A stretch of 37,559 nt of DNA, taken from positions 1-37,559 of the forward strand of contig PTKV01000015.1 in assembly GCA_002937895.1 (NCBI GenBank), given 5' to 3'. Positions 1-24,892 of this stretch are shown in pieces. The translations under genes and the position numbers were made by a program. Position 1 is the first letter of the stretch, and each line of letters starts with the position of its first letter. The notes beneath the pieces are model-generated. The model saw only the letters and a list, made by a program, of their open reading frames with translations. It was not told the origin of the DNA and made no database searches. Source of the stretch: Alphaproteobacteria bacterium MarineAlpha5_Bin9 (GTDB lineage: Bacteria > Pseudomonadota > Alphaproteobacteria > HIMB59 > GCA-002718135).

Positions 1-75
1 GGTGTTTAGCTCAGTTGGTAGAGCATCTCGTTTACACCGAGAGGGTCGGGAGTTCGAGTCTCTCAACACCCACCA
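1..75 (+). tRNA. tRNA-Val (anticodon TAC), lacking its first base
   Basis: Cloverleaf seen directly. The 3' acceptor strand AACACCC (65-71) pairs with GGTGTT at 1-6 plus one G that must lie just before the window, so the gene is cut by a single base. The anticodon stem TCTCG/CGAGA encloses the loop TTTACAC (31-37), giving anticodon TAC at 33-35, which reads GTA valine codons. The T-arm carries TTCGAGT. Discriminator A72 is followed by an encoded CCA (73-75). In many alphaproteobacteria tRNA-Val lies between hupB and the nuo operon, which fits its neighbours here. Confidence 0.95.
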
Positions 76-3455: not shown

Positions 3456-4736
3456 ATGCTTAAAGAAAATGACAAAATTTTTCTAAATCTTAATGGAAAT
3501 CATAAATGGAATCTTGAAGGAGCATTATCGAGGGGTATTTGGTCTAACACTAATGAACTTATTAAAATCGGTAGTAAATCAATAATAGAAATAATTCAAA
3601 AAAGTGAGCTAAGAGGAAGAGGTGGCGCAGGTTTTCCTACTGGACTTAAGTGGTCATTTATGCCTAAGATATCAGACAAGCCTCATTATTTAATTATTAA
3701 TGCAGATGAATCAGAACCTGGTACTTGCAAAGATAGAGAAATTTTAAGAAATGATCCTCATCTTCTTCTCGAAGGTTGTTTAATAGCTGGATATGCCATG
3801 AATTGTAAAACTTGTTATATCTATATTAGGGGTGAATATTATAATGAAGGTGTAAATTTACAATTAGCTATTGATGAGGCGTATGAAAAAGGTTTTTTAG
3901 GAAAAAATTCTTGCAATTCAGGTTGGGATTTTGATGTTTATGTTCATAGAGGCGCAGGAGCATATATTTGCGGTGAAGAAACTGCTTTGCTTGAGAGCTT
4001 GGAGGGAAAAAAAGGACAGCCAAGACTTAAACCACCTTTTCCAGCTGGAGTAGGATTATATGGATGTCCTACAACAATAAATAATGTTGAAACTATTGCA
4101 GTAACACCAACTATTTTAAGAAGAGGCCCCGAATGGTTTGCCAGTTTAGGAACTAAAAAAAATACTGGAACAAAAATTTTTAGTATTTCTGGCCATGTTA
4201 ATAAGCCATGTAATGTAGAAGAAGAAATGGGAATATCACTAAGAGATTTAATTGAAACACATGCTGGCGGTGTTATTGGAGGTTGGCAAAATCTTTTAGC
4301 AGTGATTCCTGGAGGGGCAAGTGTTCCATTAATACCAAAATCAGTTTGTGATAATATAAATATGGATTTTGACAGTCTACAAAAAGTAAATAGCGGTTTA
4401 GGCACTGCTGCAGTAATTGTAATGAATAAATCAACAGATATAGTAGAAGCTATATCAAGATTATCATATTTTTATATGCATGAAAGTTGTGGTCAATGCA
4501 CTCCTTGTAGAGAAGGAACAGGATGGATTTATAGAATGATGGAAAAAATGGTAAAGGGTTCTGCTAAAATCTCTGATATAGATAAATTATTAGAAGTTAC
4601 AAAACAGGTTGAAGGTCATACTATATGTGCTTTTGGCGATGCAGCGGCATGGCCTGTTCAAGGTTTAATCAGGCATTTTAAACCAGAAGTTGAAAAAAGA
4701 ATTTTAGAATACAATAAGCATAAAGGAGCAGCCTAA
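3456..4736 (+). CDS. nuoF: NADH-quinone oxidoreductase subunit F (NADH/FMN site, N3)
   Basis: 51-kDa-type catalytic subunit that oxidises NADH through FMN. Seen: the nucleotide-binding glycine loop [14 protein letters not shown] (53-66), [15 protein letters not shown] (166-180), and the 4Fe-4S N3 ligands Cys345, Cys348, Cys351 ([13 protein letters not shown]) and Cys391. I chose ATG at 3456, giving 426 residues, instead of an in-frame TTG at 3417: the extra 13 residues lie wholly within nuoE, and a good Shine-Dalgarno GAAGG (3443-3447) is spaced correctly for 3456. Ends in a TAATG overlap with nuoG. Confidence 0.96.
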
Positions 4737-19037: not shown

Positions 19038-19707
19038 AAATTTAATTAACATAGAAGATTTAATTAAAAAATATAAATATAAAAATGAATCTTTATTAAT
19101 TCTTAATAAAATTAATTTAAAGATTAATTATGGAGATATTATTTCAATAAAGGGACCATCTGGAGTTGGTAAAACGACATTATTAAATATTTTGGGTTTA
19201 TTAGATTCTTTTGATGCAGGTAATTTTTCTTTTGATAATACTAATGTAACAAGTTTAAATGACATTAAAAAAAATCATTTTAGAAATAGAAATATTGGCT
19301 TTATACATCAATTTTTTCATCTTATACCTGAATTAAATGTTATTGAAAATGTAGCTTTACCTAATTTAATATATGGAAATAATAAGAATGAATCATTTAA
19401 AATGGCAACAAATTTAATTAAATATTTTGGTTTAAATGAAAGAAAGTTATTTAAGCCTAATTATTTATCAGGAGGAGAACAACAAAGAGTTTCTATTGCT
19501 AGAGCTTTAATAAATAAACCAAAATTGATAATAGCTGATGAAATGACTGGTAATCTTGATGAAAAAACTTCTGATGAAATTTTTGATTTTTTTATTAATG
19601 AAGTTAAAAAAAATAATCAAACTTTAATATTTGCAACACATAATAATAATTATGCAGAAAAGGCTAATATAAAATTGACTTTAACTAAAGGAAAGATAGA
19701 ATATTAA
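19030..19707 (+). CDS. lolD: lipoprotein-releasing ABC transporter ATPase
   Basis: Cytoplasmic ATPase powering the LolC-type permease encoded just before it. Walker A GPSGVGKTT (42-50), Q-loop Gln94, signature LSGGEQQR (146-153), Walker B LIIADE (166-171) and switch His204 are all visible, so it should hydrolyse ATP. An oddity is Met172 where nearly all ABC ATPases of this class have Pro (DEPTGNLD becomes DEMTGNLD). 225 residues is the usual length. It overlaps lolC by eight bases and the dnaE start by one (TAATG). Confidence 0.93.
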   Translation: MNKNLINIEDLIKKYKYKNESLLILNKINLKINYGDIISIKGPSGVGKTTLLNILGLLDSFDAGNFSFDNTNVTSLNDIKKNHFRNRNIGFIHQFFHLIPELNVIENVALPNLIYGNNKNESFKMATNLIKYFGLNERKLFKPNYLSGGEQQRVSIARALINKPKLIIADEMTGNLDEKTSDEIFDFFINEVKKNNQTLIFATHNNNYAEKANIKLTLTKGKIEY

Positions 19708-22700
19708 TGAACAGGCCCTTTATTCATTTAAGAACTTTATCTTCATATTCTTTATCAGAAAGTACTATTAAAATTGAAAATTTAATAAAATTAGCAAAAA
19801 ATTATAACATGCCTGCAATAGCTCTTACTGACAATAATAATATGTTTGGTGCTCTCGAGTTTTCTTTAGAGTGCCAAAAGAATGGGATACAACCCATTAT
19901 TGGTACCTCTATTAATATTTTAGATTTTTCAAATTCAAATTTTAATTCCCAAATAACTTTTTTAGTAAAGAATCAGGAAGGATATGAAAATTTATTATAT
20001 TTATCCTCACTTAGTCATACTTATAATGATAATAAAATCGGAGTATCTTTAAAAAAAATACTTGAATATTCAAATGGATTAATTTCATATATTGGTGGCG
20101 AATTTAATCCACTAATTTATTTAAATAAAAATAAAAAAAATAAAGAAAAAGATAATTTAATACAAACATTAAAAGAATCATTTGATGATAATTTTTATTT
20201 TGAATTGCAAAGAATAAAAAATTTACAAATTGATGATTATGAAAATGAATTTATTTCAATTGCAGAAAAATTTAGCATTCCACTTATAGCTTCAAATAAT
20301 ATAAAATATATTTCAAAAGATGATTATAATGCTCATGATGTACTACTCTGTATTGGAAATTCCAAACAAATTTCTCAGCAAGATAGATTAAAATCTAATC
20401 CTAATATATACTTTAAAAATAATGAAGAAATGTATGAAATTTTTAAAGATATTAATAATATATTAGATAATAATTTTAATGTAGCGATTAAATGTCAATT
20501 TTATCCATCTGAAAGTAAGCCAAGACTTCCAAAATTTCCAACAAAGTTAAAAACTAATGAAGATGATCAATTGTTTTTATCTACAAAGAATGGTCTAAAT
20601 CAAAGATTAAATAATTTAAAACTAAACAGTAATTCTCCTTCTAATTCAAAAATATATTTTGAAAGATTAGAATATGAATTGAAAATTATAATAAAAATGG
20701 GTTTTTCTGGCTATTTTTTAATAGTAGCAGATTTTGTTCAATGGGCTAAGAAAAATAAAATACCTGTAGGTCCTGGTAGAGGTTCTGGGGCTGGGAGTTT
20801 GGTTGCTTGGGCATTACAAATAACAGATCTAGATCCATTGAAATACGGTCTACTATTTGAAAGATTCTTAAATCCAGAAAGAGTTTCTATGCCAGATTTT
20901 GATATAGATTTTTGTCAAAATCAAAGAGACAAAGTGAAAGAATATGTAGATTCAAAATATGGTAGAGAAAGAGTAGCTCTAATTATTACTTTTGGAACTC
21001 TAGCTTCTAGAGCTGTTATTAGAGATGTGGGAAGAGTATACGGTGTCCCATACTCTGAGGTTGATAGATTTGCCAAGTTAATTCCTTATAATCCCTCAAA
21101 TCCACTAAGTTTGAGAGATTCTATAAAATCAGACAAAAATATCCAAGAGTATATAAGAAATGATGAAAGAATAAAAAATATTGTTGATACAAGTTTTATA
21201 TTAGAAGGTTTACATCGTCATGCATCTACTCATGCTGCTGGGGTAGTTATAGGTGATAAAAATTTAGTAAAATCCATACCTTTATACAAAGATCCAGACA
21301 CCTCATTTAATGCTACTCAATTTTCAATGAAATATGTTGAAAAAGCAGGTTTAATTAAGTTTGATTTTTTAGGTTTAACAACTTTGTCTATTATTGATGA
21401 AACAATTAAACATATACAGGTTTATAATAAAAATTTTTCATTAAGCAATATTCCTACTGATGATAAAAAAACTTTTAAAAATTTGAGTAAAGGTAATGCT
21501 ACAGGGGTTTTTCAATTAGAAAGTTCTGGAATGAGCAATGTTTTGAAACAACTTCAACCTGATAGATTAGAAGAAATTATTGCTGTTGTTGCTTTATTTA
21601 GACCGGGACCTATGGATAATATTCCATCATATTGTAATAGAAAGCATGGAAAGGAAGAAATTGATTATATTCATCCAATTCTAGAGTCAATTTTAAAAGA
21701 AACTTATGGAATAATTGTTTACCAGGAACAAGTTATGCAAATTGCTCAAGCACTTTCAGGCTATACATTGGGAGAAGCAGATCTGTTAAGAAGAGCTATG
21801 GGAAAAAAAATTCAAAAAGAAATGGATGCACAAAAAACTAGATTTATAGAAGGGGCTAAAAAAAATAATATTTCATATAATCAAGCTGCTTTTATTTTTG
21901 ATCTTGTAAATAAATTTGCAGGTTATGGATTTAATAAATGCCATGCAGCTGGATATGCATTAATAGCATATCAAACTGCATATTTGAAAACTCATTTTCC
22001 TGTAGAATTTATGACAGCATCCTTAAATTATGCTTTAGATAGAACTGATAGAATAATTTATTTAAAAAACGAATTAAATACTCTTGATATAAGTTTATTA
22101 AAACCTGATATAAATTTTTCTGATTCTAAATTTAAAATTGAAGTGCAACAAGATGGAAAAAAATCAATAAGATTTGCACTTTCAGCAATTAAAGGTGTAG
22201 GTTTAAATTCTATGATTAATTTAGTTTTGGAAAGAGAATCTAATGGTAAATACAATGATATCATAGACTTTTTTAGTAGAAATAAGAACGATGTAATTAA
22301 TAAAAGGCAATTAGAAAAATTAATTCAATCAGGATCTTTAGATTCATTATATGAAAATAGATCAATTTTATTTAATAATGTTGAAAAAATTGTTAAAATT
22401 TTTGCTTCAAACATAAACTCAAATTTAGAAAATCAAACAAGTTTATTTAAAACTGAAAAGATAAATTTTAATGATAAAAAAATATTTAATCACCAAATTT
22501 TATCTTGGAATATAAATGAAAAACTTAATTATGAATTAAATGTTGTAGGATTTTATTTTTCCGATCATCCTTTATCAAATTATCCTGATTTATTTTTTAA
22601 AAAAATTAATGCAATGGATTATTCAGATATAATTAAAAACAGAGAAATATATTCCTCAATTTTAGTTGGATCTATATTAGATATTAAGGAGAGATCAAAC

Positions 22701-23135
22701 AAAGATGGTAAAAAATATGCTTTTGTAACTATTTCAAATAAAACTTCTCAATTTGAAATTACTATTTTTAATGACATAATTAATAAATATAAAGAGTTGA
22801 TTTATGAAGGAAATTTAATAATTGCTAATGTAGAAGTTTTGAGAAATAATGATAATATTAGAATAATAGCTAAAAAAATACAAAATGTTAAAGATATTTT
22901 TGAAAAAACTAAATTTAAATTAAATCTTTTTATATCGAAAACCGAAGATCACAAAGTTTTACAGGAAATAACTAAATCATCTGAAAATAATCAGAATTCA
23001 TTATATGTATATTTAGAAAAAAATGGAGATTTGATTTCTTTTGATTTTACTAAAAAATACATAATTTCTGATTATTCAAAATTGGATAAGTTAAATCAAA
23101 CACAAAAACTTAATTATTCAATAGAAATTCAATAA
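19707..23135 (+). CDS. dnaE: DNA polymerase III subunit alpha
   Basis: Replicative polymerase catalytic subunit, 1142 residues, C-family. The N-terminal PHP domain (about 1-270) is degenerate: the first metal-binding His is replaced (HLRTLSSYS) and TDHGN-like sequence reads TDNNN. The polymerase catalytic acids are Asp397 and Asp399 in PDFDIDF and Asp553 in KFDFLGL; GPGRGSGAGSLVAW lies upstream. QTSLF (910-914) fits the beta-clamp binding motif. An OB-fold region follows. Proofreading would come from a separate DnaQ. It begins in a TAATG overlap with lolD and is the last gene before the rpsB promoter region. Confidence 0.97.
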   Translation: MNRPFIHLRTLSSYSLSESTIKIENLIKLAKNYNMPAIALTDNNNMFGALEFSLECQKNGIQPIIGTSINILDFSNSNFNSQITFLVKNQEGYENLLYLSSLSHTYNDNKIGVSLKKILEYSNGLISYIGGEFNPLIYLNKNKKNKEKDNLIQTLKESFDDNFYFELQRIKNLQIDDYENEFISIAEKFSIPLIASNNIKYISKDDYNAHDVLLCIGNSKQISQQDRLKSNPNIYFKNNEEMYEIFKDINNILDNNFNVAIKCQFYPSESKPRLPKFPTKLKTNEDDQLFLSTKNGLNQRLNNLKLNSNSPSNSKIYFERLEYELKIIIKMGFSGYFLIVADFVQWAKKNKIPVGPGRGSGAGSLVAWALQITDLDPLKYGLLFERFLNPERVSMPDFDIDFCQNQRDKVKEYVDSKYGRERVALIITFGTLASRAVIRDVGRVYGVPYSEVDRFAKLIPYNPSNPLSLRDSIKSDKNIQEYIRNDERIKNIVDTSFILEGLHRHASTHAAGVVIGDKNLVKSIPLYKDPDTSFNATQFSMKYVEKAGLIKFDFLGLTTLSIIDETIKHIQVYNKNFSLSNIPTDDKKTFKNLSKGNATGVFQLESSGMSNVLKQLQPDRLEEIIAVVALFRPGPMDNIPSYCNRKHGKEEIDYIHPILESILKETYGIIVYQEQVMQIAQALSGYTLGEADLLRRAMGKKIQKEMDAQKTRFIEGAKKNNISYNQAAFIFDLVNKFAGYGFNKCHAAGYALIAYQTAYLKTHFPVEFMTASLNYALDRTDRIIYLKNELNTLDISLLKPDINFSDSKFKIEVQQDGKKSIRFALSAIKGVGLNSMINLVLERESNGKYNDIIDFFSRNKNDVINKRQLEKLIQSGSLDSLYENRSILFNNVEKIVKIFASNINSNLENQTSLFKTEKINFNDKKIFNHQILSWNINEKLNYELNVVGFYFSDHPLSNYPDLFFKKINAMDYSDIIKNREIYSSILVGSILDIKERSNKDGKKYAFVTISNKTSQFEITIFNDIINKYKELIYEGNLIIANVEVLRNNDNIRIIAKKIQNVKDIFEKTKFKLNLFISKTEDHKVLQEITKSSENNQNSLYVYLEKNGDLISFDFTKKYIISDYSKLDKLNQTQKLNYSIEIQ

Positions 23136-23141
23136 TAATTC

Positions 23142-23169
23142 TTGAATTTTCTAAATTTATTTGTATAGG
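23142..23169 (+). promoter_or_regulatory. candidate sigma-70 promoter for rpsB-tsf
   Basis: In the 103-base gap after dnaE, TTGAAT (23142-23147) and TATAGG (23164-23169) form a -35/-10 pair with 16-base spacing. This would start transcription near 23176, just before the structured leader. It is the longest gap in the window and the only one whose GC content rises. The hexamers are imperfect, so the exact positions are inferred. Confidence 0.45.
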
Positions 23170-23238
23170 GTAAGCAAATTTAACACACAGAAAAAACCGG
23201 TGTTTACTTTTCTGTGGAGGATAAACCGGAGGATATAC
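23170..23238 (+). promoter_or_regulatory. rpsB leader: hairpin with possible pseudoknot over the ribosome binding site
   Basis: A perfect nine-pair stem is seen: CACAGAAAA (23186-23194) with TTTTCTGTG (23208-23216), enclosing a 13-base loop. Loop bases CCGGT (23197-23201) are complementary to ACCGG (23225-23229), which overlaps the Shine-Dalgarno GGAGG (23228-23232) six bases before the rpsB ATG. Pairing there would make an H-type pseudoknot that hides the ribosome binding site. A second, alternative pairing of GTAAGCA (23170-23176) with TGTTTAC (23201-23207) is possible. Autoregulatory rpsB leaders bound by S2 are known in E. coli, and a candidate structured RNA before rpsB has been reported for Ca. 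Pelagibacter ubique, so this is most likely an S2-responsive translational operator. Confidence 0.65.
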
Positions 23239-24012
23239 ATGAATTTACCTGATGTAAAAATTGAAAATTTATTAGACTCAGGAGTTCATTTTGGTCATAA
23301 TACTAAAAGATGGAATCCAAAAATGGAAAAATATATTTTTGGAGTCAGAAATAAAATTCACATAATTGATTTAAGAATTACTCTCCCATTAATTAATACA
23401 GCTTTGGCTAAACTATATGAAGTTGTTGTAAAATCAGGTAAAGTGCTTTTTGTTGGAACAAAAAAACAAGCTGCTCCTATTGTTGAAAATTTATCAAATG
23501 AAACTGATCAATATTTTGTAAATAAAAGATGGCTAGGAGGAACTTTAACTAATTGGAAAACAATTTCTAATTCAATTAATAAATTAATTGAATTAGAACA
23601 ATTACTATCTGAAAAAAATAAGGATACAAACTTATCTAAAAAAGAATTATTGGATTTCAGCAGAGAAAGAGATAAATTAATTCTAAATATTGGAGGAATA
23701 AGAAATTTAGGAGGTTTACCAGATATATTAGTAAGCTTTGATTCTGTTAAAGATAAAATAGCTTTATTGGAGGCAAATAAATTAAGAATACCTATTATTA
23801 GTATTCTTGATACAAACTCTGACCCCGACATAGTTGATTATCCTATTCCAGGAAATGATGATGCATTAAGATCTATTAATTTGTATGCTGAATTATTTAA
23901 AACAACAATACTTGAAGCAAAAAATAATATAGTTATAAAAGAAAAAGATGTTAAAGATTCAAATAATTTAGATAATAAAAATCAAAAAAAAAATCAAAAA
24001 AATAAAAAGTAA
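23239..24012 (+). CDS. rpsB: 30S ribosomal protein S2
   Basis: Small-subunit ribosomal protein of 257 residues with the family signature VHFGHNTKRWNPKMEKYIFG near the N-terminus (16-35), then IHIIDL, and a second conserved region VDYPIPGNDDALRSI near the C-terminus. I chose ATG at 23239: it has a strong GGAGG six bases upstream, and an in-frame TTG at 23161 would add 26 unrelated residues that cover the leader hairpin. The C-terminus ends in a lysine- and asparagine-rich tail. First gene of the rpsB-tsf-pyrH-frr cluster. Confidence 0.97.
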   Translation: MNLPDVKIENLLDSGVHFGHNTKRWNPKMEKYIFGVRNKIHIIDLRITLPLINTALAKLYEVVVKSGKVLFVGTKKQAAPIVENLSNETDQYFVNKRWLGGTLTNWKTISNSINKLIELEQLLSEKNKDTNLSKKELLDFSRERDKLILNIGGIRNLGGLPDILVSFDSVKDKIALLEANKLRIPIISILDTNSDPDIVDYPIPGNDDALRSINLYAELFKTTILEAKNNIVIKEKDVKDSNNLDNKNQKKNQKNKK

Positions 24013-24016
24013 ATAA

Positions 24017-24892
24017 GTGAATCAACTTTCTGACAATATAAAAGATTTAAGAAATAAAACTGGGGCAGGTTTTTTAGATTGTAAAAAGGCTCTTTTAGAA
24101 AATGATAATGACATTGACAATTCAATAAATTATTTGAGAAAAAAAGGATTAGCTAAAGCTTCAAAAAAATATTCCAGAGATGCAAAAGAAGGTGCTGTCG
24201 GCTGTTTTTCCAATGAGACAAAAACTGTTCTTTTAGAAATTAATACTGAAACTGATTTTGCTGCTAAAAATGAAGTTTTTCTTAATTTCTTTGAAAATCT
24301 TGGAAATAAAATTTTGATTAATTTTAGTGATTTAGAGGGTGATATTAATATAGATGATATTACAAGTAAAATAGTAGATAAAGAAAAAATATCAGACTTA
24401 TTAGATTCAGCTATAGCAAAAATTGGAGAAAATATAATTCTAAAAAAAATTTATTTTATAAATAAATCATCAGATACACAAATCTATACTTATACTCATA
24501 ATTCATATAGAAAAAATATTGGGAAAATTTGTGTTATTTTAAAAGCAAAAACTCATCTTAATGAAGAAACAACATTATTAGGGAAAAATTTATGTATGCA
24601 CATTGCTGCATTAAAACCTCTTTCTATAGACATTGACAATCTTGACAAAAAATTAATTCAAAATGAAAGAAATATCCAAATTGAAACAATTAATTCTTCT
24701 GGTAAATCAAAGGAAATTATTGATAAAATTTTAAATGGAAAAATGCAAAAATATTATTCTGAGGTTACTTTATTAAATCAAAAATATGTTCTTGATGATA
24801 AAAAAAATATTAAAGAAATAATTGAGGAGTTTAATAAATCAAATAGTTTTGAAATTTTAGATTATAAATTATTTATCCTTGGCTCAGAATGA
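24017..24892 (+). CDS. tsf: translation elongation factor Ts
   Basis: Nucleotide exchange factor that releases GDP from EF-Tu. The N-terminal UBA-like domain has [16 protein letters not shown] (11-26), a family hallmark; [10 protein letters not shown] (79-88) matches the TDFVA core motif that contacts EF-Tu, with Ala in place of the usual Val. It is 291 residues, full length. The start is GTG four bases after rpsB. I see no hairpin between rpsB and tsf that would lower tsf expression. It overlaps pyrH by an ATGA. Confidence 0.95.

Follow-up and report, generated by a model that had tools for sequence, protein, structure and literature searches.

The leader that precedes rpsB in the 37,559-nucleotide stretch of DNA analysed here (the window) shares ancestry, judging from sequence comparison, with both the rpsB motif (Meyer 2009; RF01815) and the known S2 operator, and represents a lineage-specific compact form of them. 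Bacteria presumably use the rpsB motif to balance their output of S2. It combines a nine-pair stem, P1, with a pseudoknot whose 3' strand runs into the Shine-Dalgarno sequence (SD). What is established here is that this structure exists and is conserved, that it is homologous with the rpsB motif and that it overlaps the SD. We consider it likely that the leader acts as a reduced rpsB-motif pseudoknot of the H-type, which free S2 in excess would stabilise, blocking the SD and lowering rpsB-tsf translation.

Structure and surroundings of the leader

The following features are all on the + strand:

19707-23135, +, dnaE, the upstream gene (Pfam DNA_pol3_alpha, among others)
23142-23169, +, weak candidate promoter TTGAAT-16-TATAGG, putative, from a consensus search
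about 23182-23241, +, compact rpsB leader element, the whole conserved unit (RF01815 at 18.4 bits, model R1, relatives)
23184-23185, +, C23184, which could pair with G23217, and bulged A23185 (RF01815 alignment)
23186-23194, +, 5' arm of P1, CACAGAAAA (base inspection, covariation)
23197-23201, +, loop CCGGU, 5' strand of the pseudoknot (base inspection, class covariation)
23208-23216, +, 3' arm of P1, UUUUCUGUG (base inspection, covariation)
23217-23224, +, linker GAGGAUAA, fixed at 8 nt, from P1 to the pseudoknot strand (GAGGNNNA-type in nearly all parsed leaders)
23225-23229, +, ACCGG, 3' strand of the pseudoknot (base inspection, covariation)
23228-23232, +, Shine-Dalgarno GGAGG, its GG common to the pseudoknot strand (anti-SD CACCTCCTTTCT in same-family genomes)
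23239-24012, +, rpsB, ribosomal protein S2, 257 aa (PF00318, E 4.6e-84)
24017-24892, +, tsf, elongation factor Ts, the operon's next gene (PF00889, E 3.5e-51)

Downstream of tsf lie a gene for an amino acid kinase family protein, by position pyrH, and then the ribosome recycling factor gene. The rpsB motif of Ca. Pelagibacter ubique likewise occupies the dnaE-rpsB intergenic region (Meyer 2009 Table, PMC2704228).

A preliminary description of the region 23170-23238, which fits the conserved part at about 23182-23241, had reported a perfect nine-pair stem, a CCGGT loop complementary to ACCGG and an overlap of ACCGG with a GGAGG six bases before the start codon. Each of these holds at base level: all nine P1 pairs between CACAGAAAA and UUUUCUGUG are Watson-Crick, and ACCGG and the SD have two bases in common (GG 23228-23229), with the SD ending 6 nt before the ATG at 23239. 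A GGAGG copy noted at 23216-23220 is also present but is not a duplicated SD; it consists of the P1-closing G and the conserved GAGG linker, which is found in E. coli too (GUGGAGGCAUAACCCC).

In the 13-nt P1 cap, CCGGU is flanked by 2 nt on its 5' side and 6 nt on its 3' side; together with the 8-nt linker, these loop lengths (2, 6 and 8 nt) plausibly fit an H-type pseudoknot. The pseudoknot duplex (-6.6 kcal/mol) and the SD:anti-SD duplex (-7.0 kcal/mol) differ little in energy, as would be expected of a switch. The 16S end was not found in the host's own assembly, from which it is probably missing, and the canonical anti-SD CACCTCCTTTCT was therefore taken from same-family genomes.

Upstream of the leader, a promoter scan at a strict criterion returned no site between dnaE and the leader, and the promoter-like TTGAAT-16-TATAGG lies 12 nt before the leader's conserved CACA. 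The recurrence of CTTGA in relatives near this site (23142-23169) suggests a candidate rpsB promoter just before the leader element.

Conservation and covariation

Comparative evidence, rather than thermodynamics, carries the case for the leader, as minimum free energy (MFE) folding against shuffles gave no signal (z -0.15 and -0.42) and P1 is absent from the MFE structure, appearing in the centroid. These near-zero z-scores would agree with a hairpin and a complementarity that arose by chance in AT-rich sequence between genes. In 5,000 dinucleotide shuffles of 23136-23241, a 9-bp stem alone arose 107 times and a 7-bp stem with a 5-bp loop-downstream pairing (at least 4 G/C) 6 times, while the 9-bp stem with that same pairing never occurred (0/5,000). 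Together with family-wide conservation and covariation, this leaves a chance origin practically no probability; the comparative evidence already refutes it.

All relatives from the window's family and its sister family that could be read carry the leader before rpsB. Consensus over the 34 readable leaders of the window's family is AGCACACAGAAAAAACCGGUGUUUUUNUUUCUGUGGAGGUUNAACCGGRAG..AUG. In the sister family, P1 is wholly different (GGUUAAUAGA/UCUAUUAACU, and GACCAGUGUU/AACACUGAUC in one leader), with an identical CCGGU/ACCGG. A model built from the element of the window's family alone (R1) finds a unique match in the host's own genome (23180-23240, E 2.3e-20) and, in a search of a sample of the order, matches in 71 genomes belonging to the window's family. 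It also detects compact rpsB leaders in another family, f10, where P1 takes many sequences and the loop is CUGGU or CCGGU. R1 matches in two genomes were discarded as not being rpsB leaders: those in G339 and in G299, the latter falling within a thiolase-like reading frame.

Compensatory changes in the stem and in the loop-SD pairing had been proposed as a check. For P1 they are strong: across 38 leaders, in an alignment fitted to the model and so leaning towards its structure, 7 of the 9 pairs show two-sided changes (68 such changes) and 97.6% of cells are paired, a level reached by 0/500 shuffles and far above slid controls. Over 71 distinct leaders, P1 pairing amounts to 96.4%, compared with 65.8% after column shuffling.

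For the loop-tail pairing, covariation is seen across the class, with CUGGU/ACCAG (6 leaders), CCAGU/ACUGG, CCGAU/AUCGG and UCGGU/ACCGA, but not within the window's family, where this pairing is invariant; a covariation analysis confined to that family had too little variation to work with. The local necessity of the loop-SD pairing would accordingly draw no covariation support from this family, and ACCGG could be conserved partly as an S2 contact or as the SD. Full loop-tail pairing occurs in 69/85 leaders, against at most 63 in 2,000 shuffles; the paired count is lowered by the profile-based choice of the loop strand, which misplaces it in some leaders.

A compact form of the rpsB motif

The preliminary description had left open whether the leader is the published motif or a lineage-specific version; the common skeleton and reciprocal detection show that it is the rpsB motif, reduced to a compact form specific to the lineage. 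The host bacterium has a small, AT-rich genome, and the alphaproteobacterial rpsB motif occurs in members of its class. RF01815 is found in 177 of 289 genomes of the class at E 0.001, 73 of them above the cut-off, and the window's order is without a match. At its gathering cut-off, Rfam returned no match to the leader, and at E 0.001 RF01815 has none in the host's own genome. A covariance search with the published motif does align it to the leader (23182-23242) but at 18.4 bits, below the 40-bit cut-off; relatives' leaders reach 22-26 bits.

This alignment places P1 and AACCGG at equivalent positions and makes C23184/A23185 the counterpart of the motif's conserved CAC(A)C bulge. CA precedes the P1 arm in 74/85 class leaders and in 34/34 of the window's family. 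Class leaders have a common skeleton of CACA, P1, GAGGNNNA and ACCGG followed by a separate SD, with an 8-nt linker of the GAGGNNNA type in nearly all that were parsed. R1 in turn finds rpsB leaders of other families, its matches coinciding with RF01815 places in G218, G126, G104, G252, G150, G130, G078, G293 and G337.

Like the rpsB motif, the leader stands directly upstream of rpsB, after dnaE, with compensatory changes in P1, a bulged A, the GAGG linker and a 5-bp pseudoknot between the cap and the 3' extension after P1 (AACCGG). It differs in that the pseudoknot strand is fused to the SD and the junction stems P2 and P3 are absent, the 2- and 6-nt loop segments leaving no space for them. 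Most likely, Rfam misses the compact leader because the RF01815 model expects P2/P3. Absence of P2/P3 in some representatives has been known since the 2009 description (PMC2704228); what is new is the degree of reduction, the fusion with the SD and the lineages concerned.

In E. coli, the rpsB leader (S2 operator; t44 RNA, RF00127) has the same skeleton, CACACACGUAUC...GAUACGUG-GAGGCAUA-ACCCC, in which GAGGCAUA is the counterpart of the window's 8-nt linker and a GGGGU loop is, by eye, complementary to ACCCC. Unlike the window's leader, it has an extended cap stem, other pseudoknot letters and an SD that lies well to the 3' side of the pseudoknot strand. In E. coli K-12 (NC_000913.3; L221:213-374), this leader is annotated as 'putative small RNA T44' (tff, RF00127). 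The tff/RF00127 sequence has the RF01815 skeleton (CACACACG..CGUGGAGGNNUAACC), and the search output gave no clan linking the two families.

The cap in the window's family is the smallest in the sample, with 17-19 bases inside 7 bp of P1; elsewhere the number never falls below 26 and its median is 55. In 33/34 leaders of the window's family and 14/15 of the sister family, the pseudoknot strand is overlapped by an SD of four or more bases, against 6/70 elsewhere in a class sample partly selected by RF01815 match. Median distances from ACCGG to the start are 8, 7 and 16 nt, respectively, where automatically assigned start codons cause some gaps outside the two families to be underestimated. In f10, ACCGGAG stands directly before the start in nearly all rpsB leaders, and three f10 loci gave no RF01815 match at E 0.5. 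The f10 leaders (0.9-2 Mb assemblies; L228-L246) are equally compact and SD-fused, and their pseudoknot frequently includes a U-G pair.

A broader reading, offered tentatively and at somewhat less than even probability, is that streamlined alphaproteobacteria cut the S2 operator to a ~50-nt H-type pseudoknot fused to the SD, turning indirect control of the E. coli type into direct SD occlusion, and that the same reduction occurred in the window's order and in the separate family f10. The leader illustrates how far a putative S2 control element can shrink, and whole small-genome lineages with this putative control are overlooked by RF01815.

Proposed regulation by S2

Autorepression of rpsB-tsf by S2 is established in E. 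coli and requires S1; the operator excludes the ribosome-binding site (RBS), and the details of repression are called unclear (PMC10931766). The window's leader would supply a ~50-nt construct for binding, probing and structure work on this system. S2 is the probable ligand of the window's leader because the leader is homologous with the known S2 operator. Free S2, in excess over 30S subunits, would most likely bind P1, the bulge and the pseudoknot, probably assisted by S1 as in E. coli; an rpsA homologue is present in the genome. Binding would stabilise the pseudoknot, whose 3' strand holds the first GG of the SD, so that ribosome access would be blocked and rpsB-tsf translation would fall. 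The direction of control (repression), the help of S1 and SD occlusion as the repressive step are thus predicted. The preliminary description was correct in its observations and in its lead, and S2 regulation in this organism is a prediction from homology.

Because some of the SD lies within the pseudoknot, occlusion is the simplest mechanism, and the overlap suggests direct occlusion, unlike in E. coli. Alternatively, the leader could bind S2 but leave the SD unoccluded and repress in the E. coli manner, for example by 30S trapping or by a complex of S2 and S1 on the leader; the SD overlap would then be only a by-product of intergenic shortening. The RBS outside the E. coli operator and its need for S1 (PMC10931766) are in line with this, as are most alphaproteobacterial leaders, in which the pseudoknot lies ~16 nt from the start and the SD is separate. 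It seems unlikely, however, when the overlap is near-universal in both families and recurs in the small-genome family f10. A role for the pseudoknot as a constitutive enhancer of translation, or as a landing site for S1, in place of an S2 switch is far less probable still: pseudoknots are high-affinity S1 targets (PMC10931766) and rpsB has one of the window's few strong SDs, yet the skeleton is common to the S2-responsive E. coli leader and the element is limited to rpsB in its own genome. For comparison with the proposed control by S2, the E. coli rpsO (S15) and alpha operon (S4) leaders also have an RBS pseudoknot under ribosomal protein control, with a different protein, gene and sequence and an entrapment mechanism (PMC10931766).

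Strong SDs are rare in the window, and that of rpsB is among the best placed; most window genes lack a recognisable SD, the exceptions being rpsB and two others, which start at 4736 and 33674. The C-terminal tail of S2 (window 23950-24012) is lysine/asparagine-rich and of low complexity (NNLDNKNQKKNQKNKK). At window 1-72, directly before tRNA-Asp, Rfam finds a tRNA that is cut off by the window start (62.9 bits) and is unlisted by ARAGORN.
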